From the IMG/VR virus record IMGVR_UViG_3300025138_000425, positions 1 to 22,006 of that record: 22,006 nucleotides of DNA, one strand, 5' to 3'. Below, one piece after another: positions 4,627-22,006 of the stretch. The stretch's first letter is position 1, and each line of letters begins with the position of its first letter. The position numbers were made by a program, and so were the translations under genes. A model generated the notes under the pieces. That model had not been told where the DNA came from, ran no database searches, and saw nothing but the letters and a program-made list of their open reading frames with translations. Source of the DNA: a virus.

Positions 4627-5078
4627 ACCAACTAGATTTATTTTTAGAAGATATTGAAAAGGTATGTGAGGATGGTCTTGTCTGTATCAAGTGTGATATT
4701 AGACAGCCTATTACTAACTTCCAACAGATGTCCTATACAAAAACAGGAGAGGCAGAGATAAAAAGAACATGTCGCTCTTGTCAAAAAGGACACAGGCAAG
4801 TTATTGCTTACTTACGTAAGACTAATCCTTATCCACAGGAAGCTAGTTATCGGTGTCCAATATGTCAGCGTACTATTGATGAGGTAAATAAATATGGACA
4901 GAAACTATTAGGAACGTGGGTACTGGATCACTGCCATGATACGAACACATTTCGTGGTTATATATGTAAACATTGTAATGACGGTCTTGGTGGGTTTAGA
5001 GATGACTTAGCAACTACTAGTAATGCAGTTAAATATTTACAAAATCATAAGGAGAAGTTAAATGAAACTAACACTTGA
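4623..5078 (+). CDS. Endonuclease VII-like HNH nuclease (Holliday junction resolvase type)
   Basis: This 151-residue protein matches the recombination endonuclease VII family (T4 gp49 type), which cuts branched DNA before packaging. The core holds a zinc site C78-x2-C81 and C115-x2-C118 flanking the beta-beta-alpha-metal catalytic segment 'LDHCHDTNTFRGYICKHCN' (101-119), with D102, H103, H105 and N119 as the conserved positions, then 'GLGGFRDD' (121-128). A second Cys set, C21-x2-C24 and C50-x2-C53, sits in front of the core and looks like an extra zinc ribbon, a common addition in phage homologues. The gene is coupled to helicase by ATGA and overlaps the polymerase start by 17 nt. A more general HNH nicking role cannot be excluded. 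Confidence 0.85.
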   Translation: MNQLDLFLEDIEKVCEDGLVCIKCDIRQPITNFQQMSYTKTGEAEIKRTCRSCQKGHRQVIAYLRKTNPYPQEASYRCPICQRTIDEVNKYGQKLLGTWVLDHCHDTNTFRGYICKHCNDGLGGFRDDLATTSNAVKYLQNHKEKLNETNT

Positions 5079-7104
5079 TGTAGAGAACACCACTGTTACT
5101 AGGAATGGTAAACTACACCTTGACCCCTTTGAGCCAGAGAACTCATTGACTATGGTGGGTATGCTTACAGATCAAGGAGTAGAGCGTATCGTTACCTTTG
5201 ATCACAGTGAAGTAGAGGCTGATGAGTATGGACACGTATTGGTACAGGAGTTTCTAGATGCCGCTACAGTTCTCATCATGCACAATGCGGCACACGACTT
5301 GCTATGGCTATGGGAATCAGGCTTCACATATGATGGCCCTGTGTTTGACACTATGCTGGCAGAGTATGTTCTACAGCGTGGACAGAAAGAACCCCTTTCA
5401 TTAGAACTGTGTGCTATCCGTTATGATTTAGATACAAAGAAGCAAGACACACTAAAAGAGTATTTCAAAAAAGGTTATACTACTAAGGATATACCGCATG
5501 ATGAGTTATCCGAATACCTAAGTGCTGACTTGTTAGCTACACAACAGTTATCTGATAAGTTGTATTATCGTCTTAATACAGAAGAAGATTCGGGTCTTAT
5601 GGAAACAGTCATACTTACAAATAAAGTAGCAGTATGTCTGTCACGTATATATCAAAGAGGATTCAAAGTTGATTTGTCTGCACTTAATAGTGTGCGTCAA
5701 GAATTTGAGCATGAGAAACGTCAACTTATTGACAGTCTACAGCGTCAGATTACACAGATAATGGGAGACACACCTGTTAATTTAAATAGTCCAGAGCAAC
5801 TGTCTCAAGTTATCTACAGCAGAAAACCTATTGACAAATCTATGTGGCAGAACAACTTTGATAGGTACATGAGCAAGACAGCATACAAAGAGATGGTAGC
5901 AACACATTCAGAGCCTGTCTACAAAACGAGGGCAAAACAATGCCCCAACTGTTATGGTCGTGGCACATATTATAAAAAGAAGGTGGATGGCAGTAATTGG
6001 TCAAAGCCTTCTAAGTGTCAGGATTGTAATGGCGTAGGTTTCTTATTTATGAATACAAAAGAACTGGCTGGATTACGCTTCTCTGCACCTGACGCAAAGT
6101 GGATAAGCGCACATGGATTTACGACAAGCAAGACTAATCTAGAAGTACTAGAGGGATTTGCTAGACAAAGAGGTATGGAAGATGCTAAAAGTTTCTTACA
6201 TAAAGTAAAACGTCTTAGTGCTTTAGATACATACCTGTCATCATTCGTTGATGGCATTGAGAATTATACTAAAAAAGATGGCAAGTTGCATGTTCGCTTG
6301 CTACAGCACCGCACTGCCACTGGTAGGTTTAGTGGGGCTGACCCTAATATGCAGAACATGCCTAGAGGTGGCACTTTCCCTGTCAAGAAAGTGTTTATAT
6401 CACGGTGGGAAAGTGGCAAAATTATGGAAGCAGACTTTGCACAGCTTGAGTTTAGGGCTGCTGCATTTTTATCACAAGATGGAGTTGCAATTGAAGAAGT
6501 ATCTACTGGATTTGATGTACACGCATATACCGCTAAAGTTATTAGTGATGCTGGTCAGCCTACGAGTAGGCAGGATGCAAAAGCGCATACGTTTGCTCCA
6601 CTATACGGAGCAACAGGATATGGAAGAACGCCAGCAGAAGCGTCTTACTACAAGCACTTTACAGAAAAATACAAAGGAATTGCCTCTTGGCATTCCAGAC
6701 TGGCTAAAGAAGCTATAACAACTAACAAAATAACTGCACCATCAGGAAGACAATATTCATTTCCTAATGTAGTTAGAAAAACTAATGGTACAGTAAGTTA
6801 CTTTACACAAATAAAGAATTACCCTGTGCAGGGATTTGCTACAGCAGATATTGTTCCACTTACCCTATTGCATATTGATAAATTATTGTGTAATATGCAA
6901 AGCTGTATTGTTAACACAGTGCATGATTCAATTGTGATTGATATACATCCAGACGAAGAACGTGAGGTTGTCAATCTTATTGAAAAGGTAAACAATGACT
7001 TGACTACTATTGTGAATAACACATTTAGGATTGACTTAAATGTGCCTTTGCTTTTAGAGGCAAAAATCGGAAATAATTGGCTTGACACTAAGGATGTAAG
7101 CTGA
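5062..7104 (+). CDS. polA: DNA polymerase, family A, with 3'-5' exonuclease and DnaJ-like zinc insertion
   Basis: This 680-residue replicative polymerase has all landmarks. Exonuclease: D6 and E8 in 'LDVENT', D79 in 'MHNAAHDLLW', Y152 and D156 in 'YLSADLL'. Polymerase: motif A 'MEADFAQLEFR' (D458), motif B R503-x3-K507-x3-F511-x3-Y515-G ('RQDAKAHTFAPLYG'), motif C 'VHDSIVID' (H621, D622). Between the two lies residues 291-328 with C294-x2-C297-x-G-x-G and C319-x2-C322-x-G-x-G, the zinc-finger pattern of DnaJ. From memory this insertion marks HMO-2011-type phage polymerases. The position equivalent to E. coli Pol I 762 is Phe (F511). AAGGAG precedes ATG 5062 inside the end of the nuclease gene. 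The protein is near the length of T7 gp5 (704). Confidence 0.95.
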   Translation: MKLTLDVENTTVTRNGKLHLDPFEPENSLTMVGMLTDQGVERIVTFDHSEVEADEYGHVLVQEFLDAATVLIMHNAAHDLLWLWESGFTYDGPVFDTMLAEYVLQRGQKEPLSLELCAIRYDLDTKKQDTLKEYFKKGYTTKDIPHDELSEYLSADLLATQQLSDKLYYRLNTEEDSGLMETVILTNKVAVCLSRIYQRGFKVDLSALNSVRQEFEHEKRQLIDSLQRQITQIMGDTPVNLNSPEQLSQVIYSRKPIDKSMWQNNFDRYMSKTAYKEMVATHSEPVYKTRAKQCPNCYGRGTYYKKKVDGSNWSKPSKCQDCNGVGFLFMNTKELAGLRFSAPDAKWISAHGFTTSKTNLEVLEGFARQRGMEDAKSFLHKVKRLSALDTYLSSFVDGIENYTKKDGKLHVRLLQHRTATGRFSGADPNMQNMPRGGTFPVKKVFISRWESGKIMEADFAQLEFRAAAFLSQDGVAIEEVSTGFDVHAYTAKVISDAGQPTSRQDAKAHTFAPLYGATGYGRTPAEASYYKHFTEKYKGIASWHSRLAKEAITTNKITAPSGRQYSFPNVVRKTNGTVSYFTQIKNYPVQGFATADIVPLTLLHIDKLLCNMQSCIVNTVHDSIVIDIHPDEEREVVNLIEKVNNDLTTIVNNTFRIDLNVPLLLEAKIGNNWLDTKDVS

Positions 7105-13511: not shown

Positions 13512-13541
13512 GAGGGGGCTTAATTGCCCCCTTATTTTATT
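13512..13541. terminator. Bidirectional intrinsic terminator between converging blocks
   Basis: GGGGGC (13514-13519) pairs with GCCCCC (13526-13531) around the loop TTAATT, with an extra A-T pair at the base. On the plus strand it is followed by TTATTTTATT, and on the minus strand by TCTTTTT, so it can end transcription from both sides. It lies 5 nt after the stop of the last rightward frame and touches the stop codon of the 1128-residue leftward gene (13532), exactly where converging operons need a shared terminator. Confidence 0.88.
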
Positions 13542-16500
13542 ACTGGTTCTAACTCATCTCTCATATCTATTTTACCTTCGCCAAACTCATCTTCATATAT
13601 AGCAAGACCATATTCATAATGACCAGTATCGTGAATACTAATACCATTTGTTCTTTGTTTATATATTTGTTCTATTATTGTTTTTTTATCTCCTTTTAAT
13701 GATCTAAAAAGTGTCTCTGCCTTTTGTGCTATATCTTGACCAGATGGATATTCTATTTCTAAAACATCAGCCCTCGCTTGTCTTCTTTCATCTTTAATAA
13801 ATTGAGACAGTGCTATTCTTTTTACAACATCATTAGGTAAAGAAGTGTAATCAGGGTTTTGGATGAATGTAGATACATTAGTATCCATTTTTTCACCTAA
13901 TTCTTTTTTAGCTAGATTTGTAAGAGGTTTATTTAGTTTAATACGTGCAGGGCTTAGTTCTGCGTAACTAAAGCGTAAACGATCCAACTCTTCTTGAAGC
14001 AATGTTCTTTCTCGCTCCATAGTTATACCTGTTACAGCTTTTAAAAAGGGATTGACATTTACTACAGGTCCAGATCGTCCAACTGAGTATAAAGGTACAT
14101 CACCTTCATCAATGTCAACTTCTTGTGGAAAAGATCGCATAGATTGTTTAAACGCAAGTTCCACAAGGTCAACATCAGTATTATCAGGAACAATACGATA
14201 CTCTGGACCCATAAACGTGCCAGCTAAATCTTTAAACATACCAGCACCAACGGTAAATGTGTTAAATAAATTTCCTACAGAATTAGCAAATTCTTCTTCA
14301 AATGTTCTCTGTGATGATCCACCTTCTTCAAAGTTAAGTGCTAACTCACTAAAAAAATTAAATGTGTCTAGTCCCAAACCAGCACGTGCTGTTCCGCCTG
14401 TAAAGGCTTTTGCAATATCTCTTGTTGGATATGGTATGTCAACAGCAACTTTATCATTATCGTGAAGTTGTGGTAAATCTACAATTCCAAATAAAGGTTT
14501 TTTATTAGGCCCAGAGTGTCTATATATTAAGTCTGCAAGCATAGCAAAACCCATAAACGGACCTAAGTTTGCCTCTGCATTAATAGTCTTATTAGTTGTT
14601 GGGTCTTTGTATTGATATGGACCAGTTGTTTCATCGCCGAACACTGTTCGTATTCCAAACATTGCAGTAAGAGTTGCAAAACCACCAACTTGTTTTCCCA
14701 TTCTTTCTGCAAAAACATCTGCACTTTCAATCGGTAAAAATTCTTGTGTCCCCTTCTTACCCGCTTTATTAAGTATACCACCAAGATTAAATAAACCAAG
14801 CATAGGCATATGTTCATACATAAATATAAGCTGATTTACTAAGTATCTAGGAAACGGTATACCCACAGTTATTGGTGTTTTAGTAGCCAGTTCAATAAAA
14901 GCGTTAGCACCCGTATTAAAAACACCCTCTTTACCAGCAAATTTACCTGTTTGATAAGTAAAACCCAAGGCCGTTTCCATAGCTTCACCAATAGCTTTAT
15001 CATCTATTTGACTAAATCTACCACTGGCTTTTGCAGATGTTTTTGGGTCTAAATATGCTTCTTTAAAAAATCCTTTTAGGCCACCCTTTTGACCATTAGC
15101 AAATAAATATTTATCAATCTCTCTAGAAAAGATTGCTCTCTTAAACATGTTATCACTCATGGTATTAAGGACATTAAATTTTCTAGCTACACTAATTATA
15201 CCACCTTCTCCACCTGTTAAATCTCCAACATCACCAAGTGATCTAAATAATTCTTTAGCCAAAGGAGTTTTACCAAAACGGGAATCAGTAAATAACATGT
15301 CTAGTGCTTGAGTTTCAAAGCTACTTGTTCCCAGCCACATATCTTTTGCATAAAGAGCCTGACCGCCAGATCGCATTTGAGCCTGACCAAGACGCAATGA
15401 TCTTAATGCTTCGTCAGACATTTGACCTTTAGTTATATCAGATAATGCTTTTACACCACCTATTCCAGCATTAACTAATCCTGCTCCTAAATTATCAAAA
15501 GCATAAACATAATTACGCATCAAACCATTTGTTGTATTACGTGCTGTAGTAGCAAGTTGAACAGTCATCATACCAATACGTGCTTTATTTAAATTTCCCA
15601 AACTAAACCAATTTCTAAATACAGAACCTGACTTAGTTGCAACGCTTGCAGAACCACCATTTCTAACACTTATACGTGAACGAGTAGTAGCATCAGCTAA
15701 ACCATGAAGTCTTTGATCTAAAACAGTCAACTCGTCCAGCATTATTTTCTTTTCTTTTTTAGCTGCCCTACCAAGAGAACCCAACTTAGCACCAGCCTCA
15801 CTATAGTCCTCTGCAATTAAAGCACCAATCTGTGACATGGTAGTGTAGTGTTGTCCTGTAATACGAGCAATCTCTTCCTCTGTTATATGACCGTCAATTA
15901 TACCCCTCGTAATACGAGAGCCTATACGCTCCTCTTTTAAAACTTGCTTTTTTCCTACAACTTGTCTTATTGGTGGCACTTTGTCTAGTATTCTAGCAGC
16001 AGCAACGGCAATATTTTCATGCACCTGTTTATCTAAACCACCAATTATTTTATCTCCATCTCCAAGACCTTCTTTAATTATCTTTCCTGCTTTTAGTTGT
16101 TCTGGAACAGTGTCAGACAACGCAAGTTTAGCAATAAATTTCTTTGCGTCTTTTCTTACTCCTGCAGTTTCTTTTTTTGTGGAGTTTAAAACTTTCTTTG
16201 TTACTTTATGGGCAGTCAAAATAGGTTTCTTTTCTTTAGCAAGAGCAACCTGACGTATTTTTTCTGCGGTATTAGTTGTTAACTCTCTTTTAGTTCCTGT
16301 AGCAAGACCTATTGTTGCAGGTGCAGCGATACTAAGTGCTGTAGCTAAACCAACATTAGTAAAATCAATCTCATCTTTTACATCAGTTTCAACTCGTACT
16401 TGTTCTTGTGCTAAAGCAGTTCCAGCAGCTATTGGTGCGTCAACAGCAGCAGAGCCTATTGCAGTCTTTGCTCCTCCTTTTAGTGCCTGTTTAATACCAA

Positions 16501-16918
16501 ATTTAACACCTTGTTGAGCAGCTAATGCGCCAGCTTTTCCTGCACCAAAAGAAAACATACCTGCATAAGTGGACGGAGCAAATAACACACCCCCCAAGTA
16601 GTCTTGAGCCGCCGCTAAACCAAATTCCGTATCCATCTTATCAAAAGTGTCCATGAGTTTGCCCATGCCTTCTTTTTCTTCATCAGTGGTATCATCACTT
16701 TGGGCATAAAAAAGATCACGTGTTGCCGTGACCTCGTTTACATTTTGATATCGGAAATGTTCTAAAAAACCAGCGTAAACATCTTCTTTGTCCCTAACAT
16801 CATCTGCACTGTAGCCACCTCTCTTAATTAAAAAAGTTCTAGCATCAGACAAAAATTCGTCATTCTGAAGAAGTGAGTCTTTATTTAAATACTTATCTCC
16901 ATAAAGATTATATGACAT
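13532..16918 (-). CDS. Large probable internal virion / DNA ejection protein (1128 residues)
   Basis: This is the last and longest gene of the leftward block. The protein begins 'MSYNLYGDKYLNKDSLL', has an acidic helical region (about 20-100), then a Gly/Ala-rich, membrane-active-looking stretch (about 100-210, for example 'YLGGVLFAPSTYAGMFSFGA'), and a long mixed helical remainder ending 'MRDELEPVIK'. I see no lysozyme or transglycosylase motif. Size, Ala/Gly-rich helices and position after smaller structural genes match the large ejection proteins of T7-like phages (T7 gp16, 1318 residues) and the related core proteins of marine podoviruses, which form a channel through the cell envelope. 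Its start overlaps the stop of the preceding gene (TAATG on the minus strand). Confidence 0.7.
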   Translation of the reverse strand: MSYNLYGDKYLNKDSLLQNDEFLSDARTFLIKRGGYSADDVRDKEDVYAGFLEHFRYQNVNEVTATRDLFYAQSDDTTDEEKEGMGKLMDTFDKMDTEFGLAAAQDYLGGVLFAPSTYAGMFSFGAGKAGALAAQQGVKFGIKQALKGGAKTAIGSAAVDAPIAAGTALAQEQVRVETDVKDEIDFTNVGLATALSIAAPATIGLATGTKRELTTNTAEKIRQVALAKEKKPILTAHKVTKKVLNSTKKETAGVRKDAKKFIAKLALSDTVPEQLKAGKIIKEGLGDGDKIIGGLDKQVHENIAVAAARILDKVPPIRQVVGKKQVLKEERIGSRITRGIIDGHITEEEIARITGQHYTTMSQIGALIAEDYSEAGAKLGSLGRAAKKEKKIMLDELTVLDQRLHGLADATTRSRISVRNGGSASVATKSGSVFRNWFSLGNLNKARIGMMTVQLATTARNTTNGLMRNYVYAFDNLGAGLVNAGIGGVKALSDITKGQMSDEALRSLRLGQAQMRSGGQALYAKDMWLGTSSFETQALDMLFTDSRFGKTPLAKELFRSLGDVGDLTGGEGGIISVARKFNVLNTMSDNMFKRAIFSREIDKYLFANGQKGGLKGFFKEAYLDPKTSAKASGRFSQIDDKAIGEAMETALGFTYQTGKFAGKEGVFNTGANAFIELATKTPITVGIPFPRYLVNQLIFMYEHMPMLGLFNLGGILNKAGKKGTQEFLPIESADVFAERMGKQVGGFATLTAMFGIRTVFGDETTGPYQYKDPTTNKTINAEANLGPFMGFAMLADLIYRHSGPNKKPLFGIVDLPQLHDNDKVAVDIPYPTRDIAKAFTGGTARAGLGLDTFNFFSELALNFEEGGSSQRTFEEEFANSVGNLFNTFTVGAGMFKDLAGTFMGPEYRIVPDNTDVDLVELAFKQSMRSFPQEVDIDEGDVPLYSVGRSGPVVNVNPFLKAVTGITMERERTLLQEELDRLRFSYAELSPARIKLNKPLTNLAKKELGEKMDTNVSTFIQNPDYTSLPNDVVKRIALSQFIKDERRQARADVLEIEYPSGQDIAQKAETLFRSLKGDKKTIIEQIYKQRTNGISIHDTGHYEYGLAIYEDEFGEGKIDMRDELEPVIK

Positions 16919-18345
16919 TATATGTTAAGATACCTTTCAGCTTCTTTTTTAGCAGCTTGTGGTGTGAAACCGTTATTTGTTAAATAGGCTTCTAATTCTG
17001 CTATTGCAGCAGCTTTATCACTAGCAGATGAAGCACTATTATATTTACCTATATGACCTTTAATTATTGTCCCATTAATAGGACCAGTAGGTTGTGTGGC
17101 GTTTGGTCCGGTTTGCTGTTGAGTTACCGACCCTTGCGCGTTGGGTTGAAGTATAATTGTTCCACTGTTTTTAGCTGTACCAGCCAATTTAAAAATGGTT
17201 TCTGGAATTAATTGTTCATTACTCATCATCACAGATGCTGGAACATCTCCCTGTGCTGGAATATACACTAATTTTTTATTTTGTCCTGCTGCTATACGAG
17301 CAAGTACTATAATCTCAATGGTTTCATCTTTATACACACCTTTAGCTTTATCTTTATATGCTCTTGCTATTATGTTTGCATAATAACCACCAGCATTATC
17401 AATAGCCTCTGCTACCTCTGCTTGGTCTGATCTACCAATATAACCACTTCCATTCTCTGCCCACTTACCACCTAAACTATTAGTTGTTGCAAGAACACCT
17501 GACATTTCATTAGTAATTCTTATTATTGTAGGCACAGTAAGTTCTTTGTCTAATCTTGTAGTGGTATCTTGAAGAATTGCATACAGAGCATCAGCTTCAG
17601 AAGCAACTTTTGATGCTTTATCTCTATCTTCAGGATTTGTTGACTTTTCTAGTTGTAATGCACGTACACGCATTCTTTGTATTTCATTAAGTAAATCAGC
17701 CCTTCTACCTAAATCAAACTGATCTATTTCAATACCCAAAGCTGATGGCATATCTTCATCAACAGTAGGTTTAAACTGTCCACCTGCGTCTAGTAATTCA
17801 GCAGAACGTCTAGAAATATCTTCTCCCTTAGTATCTCCTTTAGTGCCAAACATCTTAACTAGACCAACTCTAGAATCAACGTCTTTTATTTCTGGCAATT
17901 CTCTTTTTATAGTTACTAAGTTTGTTAGTTGAGGAACAGTGGCTCTATTTGCGCCAATATCACGCATTGTCATGTTTGCAATTTTATATGCAGGTTGGCC
18001 TGTTTCTTTAGACAGAGTTATTAGTTCTGCAGCCATACTTTTAGCACCAGTAAAAGAATAATTAGTTATAAGAGAGTGCATTAAATCTTCACCCCCTTTA
18101 CCTAGTTGGCCTACAAGTGCGTCAATCTCATTTTCATTTTTATTATATAGCTTATAATACTCTTCATTATATTCATCACCTTTTTCCACACGGCGAGTAA
18201 TTAAATCCTGCGTGGTTTTTTTAGTTAAAGTCAAATCGTCATCAAGTTCATCTGCAACAGACGTGCTGAAACCCGTAACAACACCTTTAGCAAATTCTGA
18301 ATCTTTTATTCCTAGTGCTTTTCCCAAACTGCCTAAAAATGCCAT
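16918..18345 (-). CDS. Probable internal virion protein (475 residues)
   Basis: This 475-residue, mainly helical protein begins 'MAFLGSLGKALGIKDSEFAK' and is preceded by GAGGAG at a good distance. It has a charged helical first half (for example 'DEYNEEYYKLYNKNENEIDA'), a low-complexity Gln/Thr/Pro/Asn linker near residue 400 ('QGSVTQQQTGPNATQPTGP') and a short C-terminal helical unit 'AELEAYLTNNGFTPQAAKKE' resembling a small SAP- or UBA-like fold, though I cannot confirm that. I do not recognise a named family. Lying between the 167-residue protein and the giant ejection protein, it is most likely a virion core component comparable in place to T7 gp15. Confidence in the function is modest; confidence that it is a gene is high. 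Confidence 0.6.
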   Translation of the reverse strand: MAFLGSLGKALGIKDSEFAKGVVTGFSTSVADELDDDLTLTKKTTQDLITRRVEKGDEYNEEYYKLYNKNENEIDALVGQLGKGGEDLMHSLITNYSFTGAKSMAAELITLSKETGQPAYKIANMTMRDIGANRATVPQLTNLVTIKRELPEIKDVDSRVGLVKMFGTKGDTKGEDISRRSAELLDAGGQFKPTVDEDMPSALGIEIDQFDLGRRADLLNEIQRMRVRALQLEKSTNPEDRDKASKVASEADALYAILQDTTTRLDKELTVPTIIRITNEMSGVLATTNSLGGKWAENGSGYIGRSDQAEVAEAIDNAGGYYANIIARAYKDKAKGVYKDETIEIIVLARIAAGQNKKLVYIPAQGDVPASVMMSNEQLIPETIFKLAGTAKNSGTIILQPNAQGSVTQQQTGPNATQPTGPINGTIIKGHIGKYNSASSASDKAAAIAELEAYLTNNGFTPQAAKKEAERYLNI

Positions 18346-18346
18346 A

Positions 18347-18850
18347 CTAATTTCTCCTCGCCATTAATCCAGTAGGTTCTTCTTCTGGTTTAATATCATC
18401 AACGACAATTTCAGACTGTTCGTCCATGTTTATTTTATCTTTATTTCTAATTAATTTTTCGGCAATTCCCGTACCAATTGAATCTGATTGTGTTAATTCA
18501 GCATCATCTTCTAAACCTGTATTATACTTTATACCTGCTTCATCACCAAGAAGCATAAGAGTTTCAATAATCACAGGTAAAACAAGAAGACCTGTATCTA
18601 CAGAATGAGTGCCATCCATTACACCAGCTAATTGTAGTGTGTTGGCAACCGTTGTTAGAGGTATTCCCATTTCCATAACTGGAATCAAAGAATTATTAAA
18701 TGCTGGCAACATCATCCTTTCAAGATAATGTTCAGACACTTCAGTAATAGTTGTTAGACGTGCTGGTTGTTGCCACGGCCTTGCCCCTAATTCATGGGTT
18801 AAAGACATACCGGGAATAGGAGCATCTAATAATCTTTCTTTCTGCATCAT
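18347..18850 (-). CDS. Marine-phage structural-type protein ending GLMARRN
   Basis: This is a 167-residue protein. The opening 'DAPIPGMSLTHELGARPWQQ' followed by 'EVSEHYLERM', the middle 'ANTLQLAGVMDGTHSVDTGL' and the end 'EEEPTGLMARRN' match a small family I recall from marine phage structural regions, where members begin with P-I-P-G-x-S-L-T and end in G-L-M-A-R-R. Its role is not established; in such genomes it sits among virion or internal-core genes, as here. The centre holds a hydrophobic helix ('LLVLPVIIETLMLLGDEAGI'), which may be buried rather than membrane-spanning. The start overlaps the previous stop as ATGA. Confidence 0.7.
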   Translation of the reverse strand: MMQKERLLDAPIPGMSLTHELGARPWQQPARLTTITEVSEHYLERMMLPAFNNSLIPVMEMGIPLTTVANTLQLAGVMDGTHSVDTGLLVLPVIIETLMLLGDEAGIKYNTGLEDDAELTQSDSIGTGIAEKLIRNKDKINMDEQSEIVVDDIKPEEEPTGLMARRN

Positions 18851-19056
18851 GTTTCCTGTCTTTTTAATCTTTCTCTACGAATAACATTTCTAATAACCGC
18901 AACTTGATAAGCAGGTTGGCTTTTTAATTTATTAGAAACACCAGAACTTGATTTTGTTCTGTTTAACAAACCAGAAGAAGCAGGTTTTTCCTCTTGTTGT
19001 TTAACTGGTATTTTATCTACACCTAAATATATACTTTTTGCGTTATTGGTTATCAT
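18847..19056 (-). CDS. Small basic protein of the structural block
   Basis: This 69-residue protein begins 'MITNNAKSIYLGVDKIPVKQ', is rich in Ser/Lys in the middle and ends with a strongly basic helix ('VIRNVIRRERLKRQET'). AGGA lies before the start on the minus strand. It is wedged between the repeat-rich 712-residue protein and the GLMARR protein with a 4-nt overlap to the latter, so it is co-translated with virion genes. I do not recognise it. A basic tail could bind DNA or a partner core protein; this is only a suggestion. Confidence 0.65.
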   Translation of the reverse strand: MITNNAKSIYLGVDKIPVKQQEEKPASSGLLNRTKSSSGVSNKLKSQPAYQVAVIRNVIRRERLKRQET

Positions 19057-19065
19057 GTTTATATC

Positions 19066-21204
19066 CTAAAAAATCTTACCAAATCCATGTTGAAGAGCAG
19101 CACTTCCAAGTGTACCGATCAAACTACCAATAGCTGTACCTGCTGCAGAACTGCTTGCCATAGCTTGCACCTCTTTTTTATAATCAGACTCTAACTGTGC
19201 AACAGCTAAAGTAATATTTCTATCCAACTCACTTTCAGCACTTGTCCATGCCCACTCCATAGTGTCAGCATAATAACTCCACAGATTATCGTAGGCAGTT
19301 TTACTAATATCTAAAACAGCATTGGCATTTAGTTCATTAGCCCTGTTAACAGCAAGCGTGTCAGCACTAGCAATCTGTCTACGCCACTGTGCGTTAGACT
19401 GTGCAATTACAAGTTGATTCTGTGCATTAAACTGATCACGTTGATTGTTCATTTCTGCATTAAATCGTTCTACTGTGTTGGCTTGTCCTGCATTAAACTG
19501 TGACTGTGCATTTTGTTGTGTAGCATTAAACTGTGATGTTTGCTGCCCCAAGTTAGCAAAGAATTGATCCACTTGGTTTTGACTCGTAGCATTAAATTGT
19601 GCCGCCGCATTTGTAGCAGCAGCATCTGTAAACATGGATTGTGTGCGTTGTTGTGCTTTAAATAATTCTGTTTGTTGCCGATTAGACAAATTAGCCATGT
19701 CAAGCTGCATAAAGTTAGATGCATTTTGTACTGCACTTTGTTGTCTATTGTTTAAGTTAGATGCATCCATCTGCGCTAGAGCAGCAGCCTCTGCCATTAC
19801 CATACCCTGTGAGTTAGACAGGTTGTTAAGATTCATTGTATTTGCAGCACGAGAGTTTTCTAGCTGCACCTGCTGTTCAGCAGTAAAGTTCATATTTGCT
19901 ATTTCTGAAATACGTGATGCATTCTGTACTCTTGATTGAAAGGCTTGATCAAACTCTTGACCCATAAATGTCGCACGCTGTTGTGCCGCAAGCATAGCAC
20001 GTTGTTGTTTATTTGAAAGGTTCTGCGCCTCAAACTGTGCAATAGTTTGTGCGTCAGCAGAAGCAATAGGTAAAGCAGACTCTAGTGCAGCTTGAACCAT
20101 AGCCTGACCAGCTATAGAAGACGCACCAAGCCCTCTTTGAGCCATCTGTGCCTGTACACCCCTTAATGCACCTGCAGCCCACGCTGGTGGGTTTGTAGCG
20201 TCAAAGTTAGCAGTAAGAGAGGCAAGCTGTCCTTGTACTGTAGCTTGTGTAGATGGTGTAGCCTCTGCAGCTTGCACCTGTTCAGTAAAGGTGGCAGCAG
20301 TCTGTGCGTTAGCTGCGCCAGTAATTAACTCACCAGATTGTATACTACGTTGTACAGGGCTGTTGATTAATGTGGCATTACCTTGTGCTTCAGTTAGATT
20401 GCCTACAGAAGATGCTGTTTGCTGTGCAGCAGTAACTTGTGCGCGAGGATCAGCAACAGCAGTCTGTGCAGCCTGTGTAGCATTCATAGCTGCATCTACA
20501 GCAGGTGCAGCCTGTGCAGCACTAAATGTGTTAGCAGCTTTCTCTTGTTCTGCTATTGATTGTGCTGTCATTGCCATTGCTGTAGGCACTGCAACTGCAC
20601 CTGTAAGTGAGCCAGTACCCTGCTGTACTTCTTGACCCGGACCTGTTGGTGTCATAGCAGCAGTAGTTACACCACCTTCAGGAACTCCGGGTGTAAACAT
20701 ACGTTGCATTGTAGCTTCACCTATAGTTGTTGGGGTATTTGTAGGTGCAGCAGGTGTGGGTGCTGGTTGTGCTGTGCGTGGGTCAGGCATATCAGCAATA
20801 GGAAACTGCTCCATATCGCTTACTTGTTTTTGACTAGGCTGTGGGTCAAAATATCCTTGCTTAACAGTTACACGTGTACCATCAGGTTTATACGCATACT
20901 CACCGCCTGTTATTGGCATAGCTGCTGCGTATGGTCGCATAGAATCTGTAGTTCTAGTTAGCGTTTCGCCCTGTTGTGGTGTGTAAAACTCTGGACCTGC
21001 AGATAAAAGACCACCAGTCTGCATCTTCTTAACCATACCACCTTTAGCCATAGTCTGTGCAGCTTGTACAAAGCCATTCATACGTGCCTTACGTGCTGGG
21101 TCTTGTTCAATATACTGCTGGAATGAATCCATGTTACCAGTATATCCCATTGCCCCTGCAATCTTATTCATTGCTTCAGGTTTAAATGCTTTGAACATCG
21201 CCAT
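19066..21204 (-). CDS. Ala/Gln/Asn-rich virion protein with long hendecad repeat (712 residues)
   Basis: This protein has four visible regions. Residues 1-75 include 'MAKGGMVKKMQTGG', a motif I associate with marine phage core proteins. Residues 75-200 are Pro/Thr-rich and probably unstructured. Residues 200-394 are Ala/Gln/Thr-rich. From about 395 to 636 runs a near-perfect 11-residue repeat, usually starting with Asn (for example 'NLSNRQQTELF', 'NATQQNAQSQF', 'NAGQANTVERF'). A Trp-rich helix ('YDNLWSYYADTMEWAWTS') and a small-residue Gly/Ala tail ('AAGTAIGSLIGTLGSAA') that could insert in membrane close the protein. Position and composition suggest an internal virion or ejection protein forming long helices. 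No enzyme motif is seen. It follows the small membrane protein by 1 nt. Confidence 0.65.
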   Translation of the reverse strand: MAMFKAFKPEAMNKIAGAMGYTGNMDSFQQYIEQDPARKARMNGFVQAAQTMAKGGMVKKMQTGGLLSAGPEFYTPQQGETLTRTTDSMRPYAAAMPITGGEYAYKPDGTRVTVKQGYFDPQPSQKQVSDMEQFPIADMPDPRTAQPAPTPAAPTNTPTTIGEATMQRMFTPGVPEGGVTTAAMTPTGPGQEVQQGTGSLTGAVAVPTAMAMTAQSIAEQEKAANTFSAAQAAPAVDAAMNATQAAQTAVADPRAQVTAAQQTASSVGNLTEAQGNATLINSPVQRSIQSGELITGAANAQTAATFTEQVQAAEATPSTQATVQGQLASLTANFDATNPPAWAAGALRGVQAQMAQRGLGASSIAGQAMVQAALESALPIASADAQTIAQFEAQNLSNKQQRAMLAAQQRATFMGQEFDQAFQSRVQNASRISEIANMNFTAEQQVQLENSRAANTMNLNNLSNSQGMVMAEAAALAQMDASNLNNRQQSAVQNASNFMQLDMANLSNRQQTELFKAQQRTQSMFTDAAATNAAAQFNATSQNQVDQFFANLGQQTSQFNATQQNAQSQFNAGQANTVERFNAEMNNQRDQFNAQNQLVIAQSNAQWRRQIASADTLAVNRANELNANAVLDISKTAYDNLWSYYADTMEWAWTSAESELDRNITLAVAQLESDYKKEVQAMASSSAAGTAIGSLIGTLGSAALQHGFGKIF
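19297..20022 (-). repeat. Coding hendecad repeat, 22 units of 33 nt
   Basis: Residues 395-636 of the 712-residue protein divide without any gap into 22 units of 11 residues. Asn is the first residue in 15 of them (395, 428, 439, 450, 461, 483, 494, 505, 538, 560, 571, 582, 593, 604 and 626). The first half alternates 'NLSN-[KR/S]-QQ' units with variable ones, giving a 22-residue super-period; the second half has 'NA...QF' units. DNA identity between units is only partial, so the repeat is old or under protein-level selection. Confidence 0.85.
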
Positions 21205-21205
21205 A

Positions 21206-21418
21206 TTAATTCATTCCCATAAATACTGTAACGACCATAGCCACTACCATTACTGTGCTACCCATTATCATTGCTTCTAAACGCCACATGCGCTTATCCA
21301 GCCCATCCAGTTTACCGTGTACCAACTCGCGGAACATAGCACATTCTTTTTCGTGGGCGTCAAGTTCCATCTGTACCTTCAGTGCAGGTTCTATAGTTTG
21401 CTCCTGTGCCATTCGCAT
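21206..21418 (-). CDS. Small coiled-coil plus membrane-anchor protein, holin/XhlA-like
   Basis: This 70-residue protein has an amphipathic, probably coiled-coil helix (about 14-48: 'VQMELDAHEKECAMFRELVH', then 'GKLDGLDKRMWRLEAM') and one C-terminal hydrophobic segment (50-69, 'MIMGSTVMVVAMVVTVFMGM'). This layout recalls XhlA-type haemolysin/holin accessory proteins, which work at the inner membrane in lysis. It lies between tail-fibre and core genes. The start could be the first ATG or the third codon (also Met); neither has a strong ribosome site. A holin role is plausible, given that the SleB-like hydrolase lacks a signal peptide, but is inferred from shape only. Confidence 0.6.
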   Translation of the reverse strand: MRMAQEQTIEPALKVQMELDAHEKECAMFRELVHGKLDGLDKRMWRLEAMIMGSTVMVVAMVVTVFMGMN

Positions 21419-21770: not shown

Positions 21771-22006
21771 CTATGCCTCCAACGCTGTAATACGTGCTTC
21801 AAGAGCATCGTTCTTTGCGGATAGTTCTTGTATGGCTTTAACCAACACAGGAATTAATCTTTCTCTTGATACAGATAGAATTTTATCATCGTCGCTTTCA
21901 GAGTATGAGACAGCAGAAGAAAAAACTGTTTGTAACTCTTGTGCAACAAATCCTGCTTTAATTGTTTGTGTAGGATTTCTTTTATAAGCAAAGTCACGAA
22001 CTTTCA
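21771..22006 (-). CDS. C-terminal end of a tail fibre/spike with S74 intramolecular chaperone domain (partial)
   Basis: A leftward frame enters from the right edge and ends at TAG (21771-21773). The 77 residues visible read 'KVRDFAYKRNPTQTIKAGFV', then 'AQELQTVFSSAV', 'ILSVSRERLIPVLVKAIQEL', and finish in a Leu-rich coil 'KNDALEARITALEA'. 'GFVAQEL' plus 'L.PVLVKAIQEL' and a closing trimeric coiled coil are the signature of Peptidase_S74 domains, which help phage fibres and spikes trimerise and then cleave themselves off. The catalytic Ser end of the domain and the fibre body lie outside the window. Confidence 0.82.
   Translation of the reverse strand, partial: KVRDFAYKRNPTQTIKAGFVAQELQTVFSSAVSYSESDDDKILSVSRERLIPVLVKAIQELSAKNDALEARITALEA

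Follow-up and report, generated by a model that had tools for sequence, protein, structure and literature searches.

A Long, Proline-Free Hendecad Array in a Candidate DNA-Ejection Protein of HMO-2011-Type Podoviruses

Genes and Features at the Locus

The DNA analyzed is a stretch of 22,006 nucleotides (positions 1-22,006 of IMG/VR record IMGVR_UViG_3300025138_000425), here called the window, whose numbering is used for its coordinates throughout. On the minus strand, positions 19066-21204 encode a 712-aa protein, the hendecad protein, which is homologous to phage1322_25 of phage HMO-2011 (63.9% identity over 100% of the length by tblastn). Gene order around it matches that of HMO-2011 as far as MazG and ribonucleotide reductase, and sequence comparison places the window protein as a member of the phage1322_25 group of HMO-2011-type podoviruses. 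Searches with tblastn recovered relatives from podoviruses of this type (HMO-2011, CRP phages, HTVC phages) and, more remotely, from Vibrio phage CHOED, Aeromonas phage MQM1, Sinorhizobium phage phiM6, and Rhizobium phages. Where relatives are annotated they are called hypothetical, with the single exception of an automatic "huntingtin". When the window protein and its alignments were searched against Pfam and PHROG profiles, no significant family emerged for the hendecad protein, and a profile search against all PDB chains found no solved relative (nothing relevant at E ≤ 10); KMP-11 matches in the profile searches (E 1.3-1.6) were judged to be chance.

Within the genome-contig collection searched, only one contig, from a Maricaulis MAG, bears a relative, and there is thus little sign of prophages in the HMO-2011-type group. 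A tyrosine integrase (PF00589) nevertheless lies at 1665-2558 on the plus strand of the window. On the same strand, 5062-7104 encodes a family A DNA polymerase with an inserted DnaJ-type CXXCXGXG zinc domain (PF00684); the match, at E 2e-4, is below the curated cut-off, and the HMO-2011 protein is annotated alike.

The hendecad gene is the first in a block of minus-strand genes with which the late module ends in those relatives that were inspected. It is followed by a 69-aa ORF (18847-19056), at a place where several relatives also have small ORFs, and by a gene for a 167-aa partner protein with a C-terminal GLMARR motif (18347-18850). This conserved neighbor lies 3' of the hendecad gene in 192 of the 200 loci that were searched and have space for it, a count that leaves out 14 annotated records. 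Its model is helical and fairly confident (pLDDT 81) and has no PDB match. The block continues with a fast-evolving 475-aa protein (16918-18345), by position a putative ejection protein like P22 gp20/T7 gp15, and closes with a 1128-aa protein (13532-16918), by position a putative counterpart of P22 gp16/T7 gp16. The order of hendecad protein, small ORF, 167 aa, ~475 aa, and ~1130 aa resembles the ejection blocks of P22 (7-20-16), H6/1 (gp17-18-19), and Salmonella phage 7-11/phiEco32. In SU10, gp20-24 are lost upon genome release.

Directly upstream of the hendecad gene, a 70-aa ORF with one hydrophobic stretch (21206-21418, minus strand) is holin-like by eye, and several relatives carry holin, endolysin, lysozyme, or peptidase genes near this site. 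Farther upstream, the end of an ORF at 21771-22004 (minus strand) resembles by eye an S74-type tail-fiber C-terminus (GFVAQELQTVF...RLIPVLVKAIQEL).

The hendecad protein itself falls into five regions. Residues 1-321 (20242-21204) are Pro/Ala/Thr-rich and differ in length among close relatives, which total 504-1103 aa with the array fixed. A conserved domain at residues 322-383 (20056-20241), defined from conserved alignment columns, has the consensus NPPAWAAGALR...RGLGASS..GQA....ESALPIA; the corresponding anchor HMM matches 227 ORFs. The proline-free array of 22 hendecads occupies residues 395-636 (19297-20022) and leads into a conserved post-array helix, residues 637-680 (19165-19296; YDNLW.YYADTMEWAW.SAE...R), through which the 11-residue register continues. 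The preliminary description had pointed to a Gly/Ala-rich C-terminus as a possible membrane anchor. The composition is as described (19069-19146), and comparison of homologue tails adds a glycine zipper, G-TAI-G-SLI-G; the GxxxGxxxG pattern occurs in 32% of homologue tails versus 5% of shuffled ones. The anchoring itself we keep as part of the mechanism proposed below.

In some relatives the Gly/Ala C-terminus is replaced or followed by a Peptidase_S74 or a "CWVAREVYG" domain. The latter belongs to a C-terminal extension of ~65 aa that starts FCWVAREVYG and was seen in HMO-2011 (15911-16121 of that genome, L081) and 21 more 22-unit relatives. It sits after the glycine zipper as an alternative to S74 and is absent from all other phage records.

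An 11-Residue Register Kept across Relatives

That the frame divides into 22 consecutive 11-residue units, 15 of them opened by Asn, was claimed at the outset and is confirmed by a column-information score for period 11 that lies 8.8 SD above composition shuffles (next unrelated period, 1.4). The array reads in frame along minus-strand positions 20022-19297 with zero indels. Besides Asn at position 1, Ala takes position 2 in 14/22 units and Gln position 7 in 12/22. Only the doubled period is also prominent, and each half of the array is significant alone (6.6 and 7.5 SD for period 11). By eye, the register reaches about one unit upstream (384-394) and about four units downstream (to ~680), there without the Asn. 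When the same residue recurs in different units, its codon is identical at a frequency of 0.47, where codon usage predicts 0.27-0.51 depending on the residue. For the window, this agreement with expectation rules out a fresh DNA duplication as the source of the period and indicates that the repeat is old and maintained at the protein level.

Across the family, 236 loci were collected (annotated records included), and the pre- and post-array HMMs both match in 200 ORFs. Thirteen in-register distances separate these anchors, the shortest 140 and the longest 778 residues, and the distance is equal modulo 11 in 199 of the 200 homologues; the sole exception, L106, is one residue longer. Unit length therefore never varies freely, as it could have done had the hendecad reading been wrong, and 80/80 close relatives have the same anchor distance. 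The arrays comprise 14, 15, 16, 17, 18, 22, 27, 30, 32, 40, 42, 62, or 72 units, phiM6 having one of 15. The 12 departures from the window array length, all by whole units, cannot be chance, even with loci that are not fully independent. Prolines number 0 in 49,623 array residues (174 distinct arrays), and upstream of the array 0 of 985 windows of 150 residues are proline-free. Given whole-unit length changes, the lack of proline, and an AlphaFold2 model that is helical without strand, the hendecad helix, as predicted, is under strong selection.

If straight, the helices would measure from 23 nm (14 units) to 119 nm (72 units), with arrays of 62-72 units at 102-119 nm. A straight helix of such a long array would exceed both capsid width and envelope thickness. 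It is accordingly improbable that the array simply measures out the envelope, and the fixed 36-nm rod first envisaged is doubtful in that role, since relatives span the whole range from 23 to 119 nm. Long arrays carry Gly at position 10, mostly spaced by 4 or 6 units; these glycines may be hinges, and the long arrays may fold back. In five loci with 62-72 hendecads (L150, L151, L152, L182, and L192) we also observed a super-repeat of 110 residues (10 hendecads), with identity of up to 0.55 at the 10-unit lag.

Array length that is highly variable in whole units is also reminiscent of tape measures, and could point to an internal rod that fills the tail or portal lumen or scaffolds the head DNA and is ejected without being the path of the DNA. 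Tape-measure proteins do appear among Foldseek matches to the array model, none of them significant; the top matches to this weak model hold little beyond likely relatives. However, these phages are short-tailed, and a 62-unit record (G002, L151) has an HMO-2011-like coat (75% identity), and its downstream genes are also unchanged in kind, indicating the same kind of virion and hence no long tail to measure. We consider such a rod distinctly unlikely.

Predicted Helix and Its Packing

An AlphaFold2 monomer model of residues 322-712, built from 52 sequences, places helices at 43-93, 99-135, 143-183, 187-251, and 257-385 (model numbering) and no strand in the array. The model is weak overall, with moderate confidence for the helix (pLDDT 61, pTM 0.22); pLDDT is ~45-67 in the N-terminal half of the array and 70-82 for a large share of its C-terminal part. 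With period 11 and the fixed unit length, the model supports the original proposal of a hendecad α-helix, and the check for disorder or β structure over residues 395-636 returned helix with zero strand, at pLDDT of only ~45-67 in the N-terminal half. The low values there could instead reflect a disordered low-complexity linker, or the array could be a β-solenoid with an Asn ladder: every odd position from 1 to 9 is polar, the even positions are more hydrophobic, and there is hydrophobicity power at 2.2-2.75 residues. This strand-like alternation is not borne out by the model, and the absence of proline, the fixed register, and the helical precedent of ϕX174 H (discussed below) also argue against either form, making both very improbable.

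On an 11/3 helical wheel, hydrophobic residues gather in two seams ~163° apart, at positions 2/6/10 and 11/4/8. Positions 1/5/9 bear most of the charge, while 3/7 form an amide or small, low-charge face. The suggestion that Asn residues form ladders inside a bundle is consequently doubtful, as position 1 falls on the side of the helix that holds positions 5 and 9, the most charged of all. For hydrophobicity, the first harmonic amounts to 0.8, versus 19 for an ideal single-core hendecad. Because it is near zero and the seams are opposite, the wheel favors helices with a neighbor on each side, in a tube or sheet, over a dimer or trimer, albeit with modest statistics (two-seam pattern, joint p 0.008 versus permuted positions; second harmonic alone, p 0.18).

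Amphipathic 11-mer helices are known from synuclein, perilipin, and LEA proteins, and the array could likewise coat membrane or DNA and act on the host membrane with no tube formed. The 11/3 geometry, the low hydrophobicity of the array, and its length changes in whole units would all fit; yet a hydrophobic moment near zero leaves no single membrane-facing side, and we regard a coating helix as quite improbable.

A Candidate Role in DNA Ejection

Judged from synteny, the hendecad protein is likely a virion protein. The earlier suggestion of a virion or ejection function gains support from gene order and from the C-termini of relatives. Peptidase_S74 is absent from the window protein in a Pfam profile search and stands at the C-terminus of three relatives, CRP-3, CRP-212, and CRP-738. 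The nearest S74 domains outside the family are mostly on proteins annotated for DNA injection, transfer, or ejection, and PHROG hits carry the names "DNA ejection protein" and "virion structural protein". Overall, we think it probable that the hendecad protein is an ejection protein.

S74 is also the chaperone of endosialidase, and tail-fiber genes lie upstream of the hendecad gene. Together these features could indicate a low-order right-handed coiled-coil rod (dimer to tetramer, probably trimer), such as a tail needle or fiber shaft with S74 as its trimerizing chaperone. A long trimeric coiled coil of this sort makes up the tail needle of P22 (gp26). Against such a shaft, ejection proteins rather than fibers carry most of the closest S74 domains, the gene adjoins the large proteins that end the module, and hydrophobic positions occupy two opposite faces where a single core would be expected. 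We consider this rod unlikely.

An ejection conduit built of such helices has a precedent, and the statement that no structure of this kind had been described was wrong. The H tube of ϕX174 (PDB 4JPP), a hendecad/heptad DNA-injection tube, is a 17-nm decamer that spans the cell wall and translocates DNA; its helix comprises three hendecads, a transition, and eleven heptads (Table 1 of PMC7354561), and 18 of its 23 inward residues are N, Q, or R (PMC7354561). The H protein scores z 6.8 for period 11 with the same script. Both proteins have a hendecad helix (here predicted) with an amide-rich uncharged face, a charged opposite face, and hydrophobic seams between, and the hendecad-protein wheel would be compatible with an H-tube-type lumen lined by amide/guanidinium groups between two seams, within the modest statistics given above. 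ϕX174 differs in being an ssDNA microvirus, with only 3 hendecads before the 11 heptads, and H gave no match to the hendecad protein in the profile search of all PDB chains (E ≤ 10). A second precedent is Sf6 gp12, a dsDNA podovirus ejection protein that forms a decameric 15-nm channel whose stem accommodates the H tube (PMC4755594). Sf6 gp12 and P22 gp20 share with our protein a podovirus origin, a probable place in DNA ejection, and the prospect of a helical multimer channel resembling the H tube, but their gene position differs. Period 11 in P22 gp20 (z 6.0) was lost in an all-window test (28/400 shuffles) and reflects a short run only.

By gene position, the closer counterparts are P22 gp7/Sf6 gp11 and T7 gp14. 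Like P22 gp7/Sf6 gp11, the hendecad protein is the first of its putative ejection block and has a Gly-rich C-terminus; gp7-like proteins of other phages also carry S74. The P22-like order is present, with the hendecad gene first and the ~470-aa and larger proteins later, separated by 1-2 extra small genes. However, gp7 has 229 aa versus 712 and lacks the 11-residue period. Profile comparison by hhalign gave 0.2% probability with alignment A2 and 92.6% with A1, the latter in the S74 domain only, and homology to gp7 on the basis of a shared GGLGSTA/RGLGASS motif is unsupported by it. T7 gp14 is the small first member of the 14-15-16 block and forms a helical channel after ejection, but it too lacks the 11-residue period and has no profile match. 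None of P22 gp7, T7 gp14, and ϕX174 H shows a significant sequence match to the hendecad protein.

Pseudoalteromonas phage H6/1 gp17 (L248, 5140-6216), an annotated "putative ejection protein", has Gly/Ser-rich 11-residue repeats (z 11.4). It resembles the hendecad protein in repeat length and in opening its block, which in H6/1 has three ejection genes, and it ends in S74, being one of the annotated ejection proteins whose S74 domains are nearest to those of the CRP relatives; it differs in its Gly/Ser-rich units and shows no significant similarity. A search of viral contigs with gp17 found no relatives. As profile comparison finds S74 to be the sole part in common, the S74-linked ejection proteins and the hendecad protein likely share a design and exchange modules, descent not being established.

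The best reading, to which we assign roughly an even chance, is that the protein serves in DNA ejection (a pilot protein) and that its helices come together as a multi-helix tube or bundle. Each array would form a single long α-helix with 11/3 geometry and hydrophobic seams on two opposite sides, and many copies would pack side by side in the manner of ϕX174 H. The copies would reside in the head and exit via the portal in a slender form; once in the cell envelope, they would join the 475- and 1128-aa proteins to build a channel for phage DNA. The glycine-zipper C-terminus would insert into a membrane. Positions 3 and 7, the low-charge amide face, would be turned toward the lumen, leaving the charged face (1, 5, 9) on the outside. 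More tentatively, and less likely than not, this may be a dsDNA-phage ejection family that builds its DNA conduit from pure hendecad helices in exceptionally long uninterrupted arrays (up to 72 units), with length set by whole 11-residue units or 110-residue blocks.

HMO-2011-type phages are described as dominant and broadly distributed in the sea (PMC9038755); in the literature we found no account of how their DNA passes across the envelope. With 13 natural array sizes in an exact 11-residue register, the family offers a ready-made test of how a helical conduit is constructed and its length set. The hendecad protein would tie the H tube of the ssDNA phage ϕX174 to the ejectosomes of dsDNA podoviruses, by design if not by descent.
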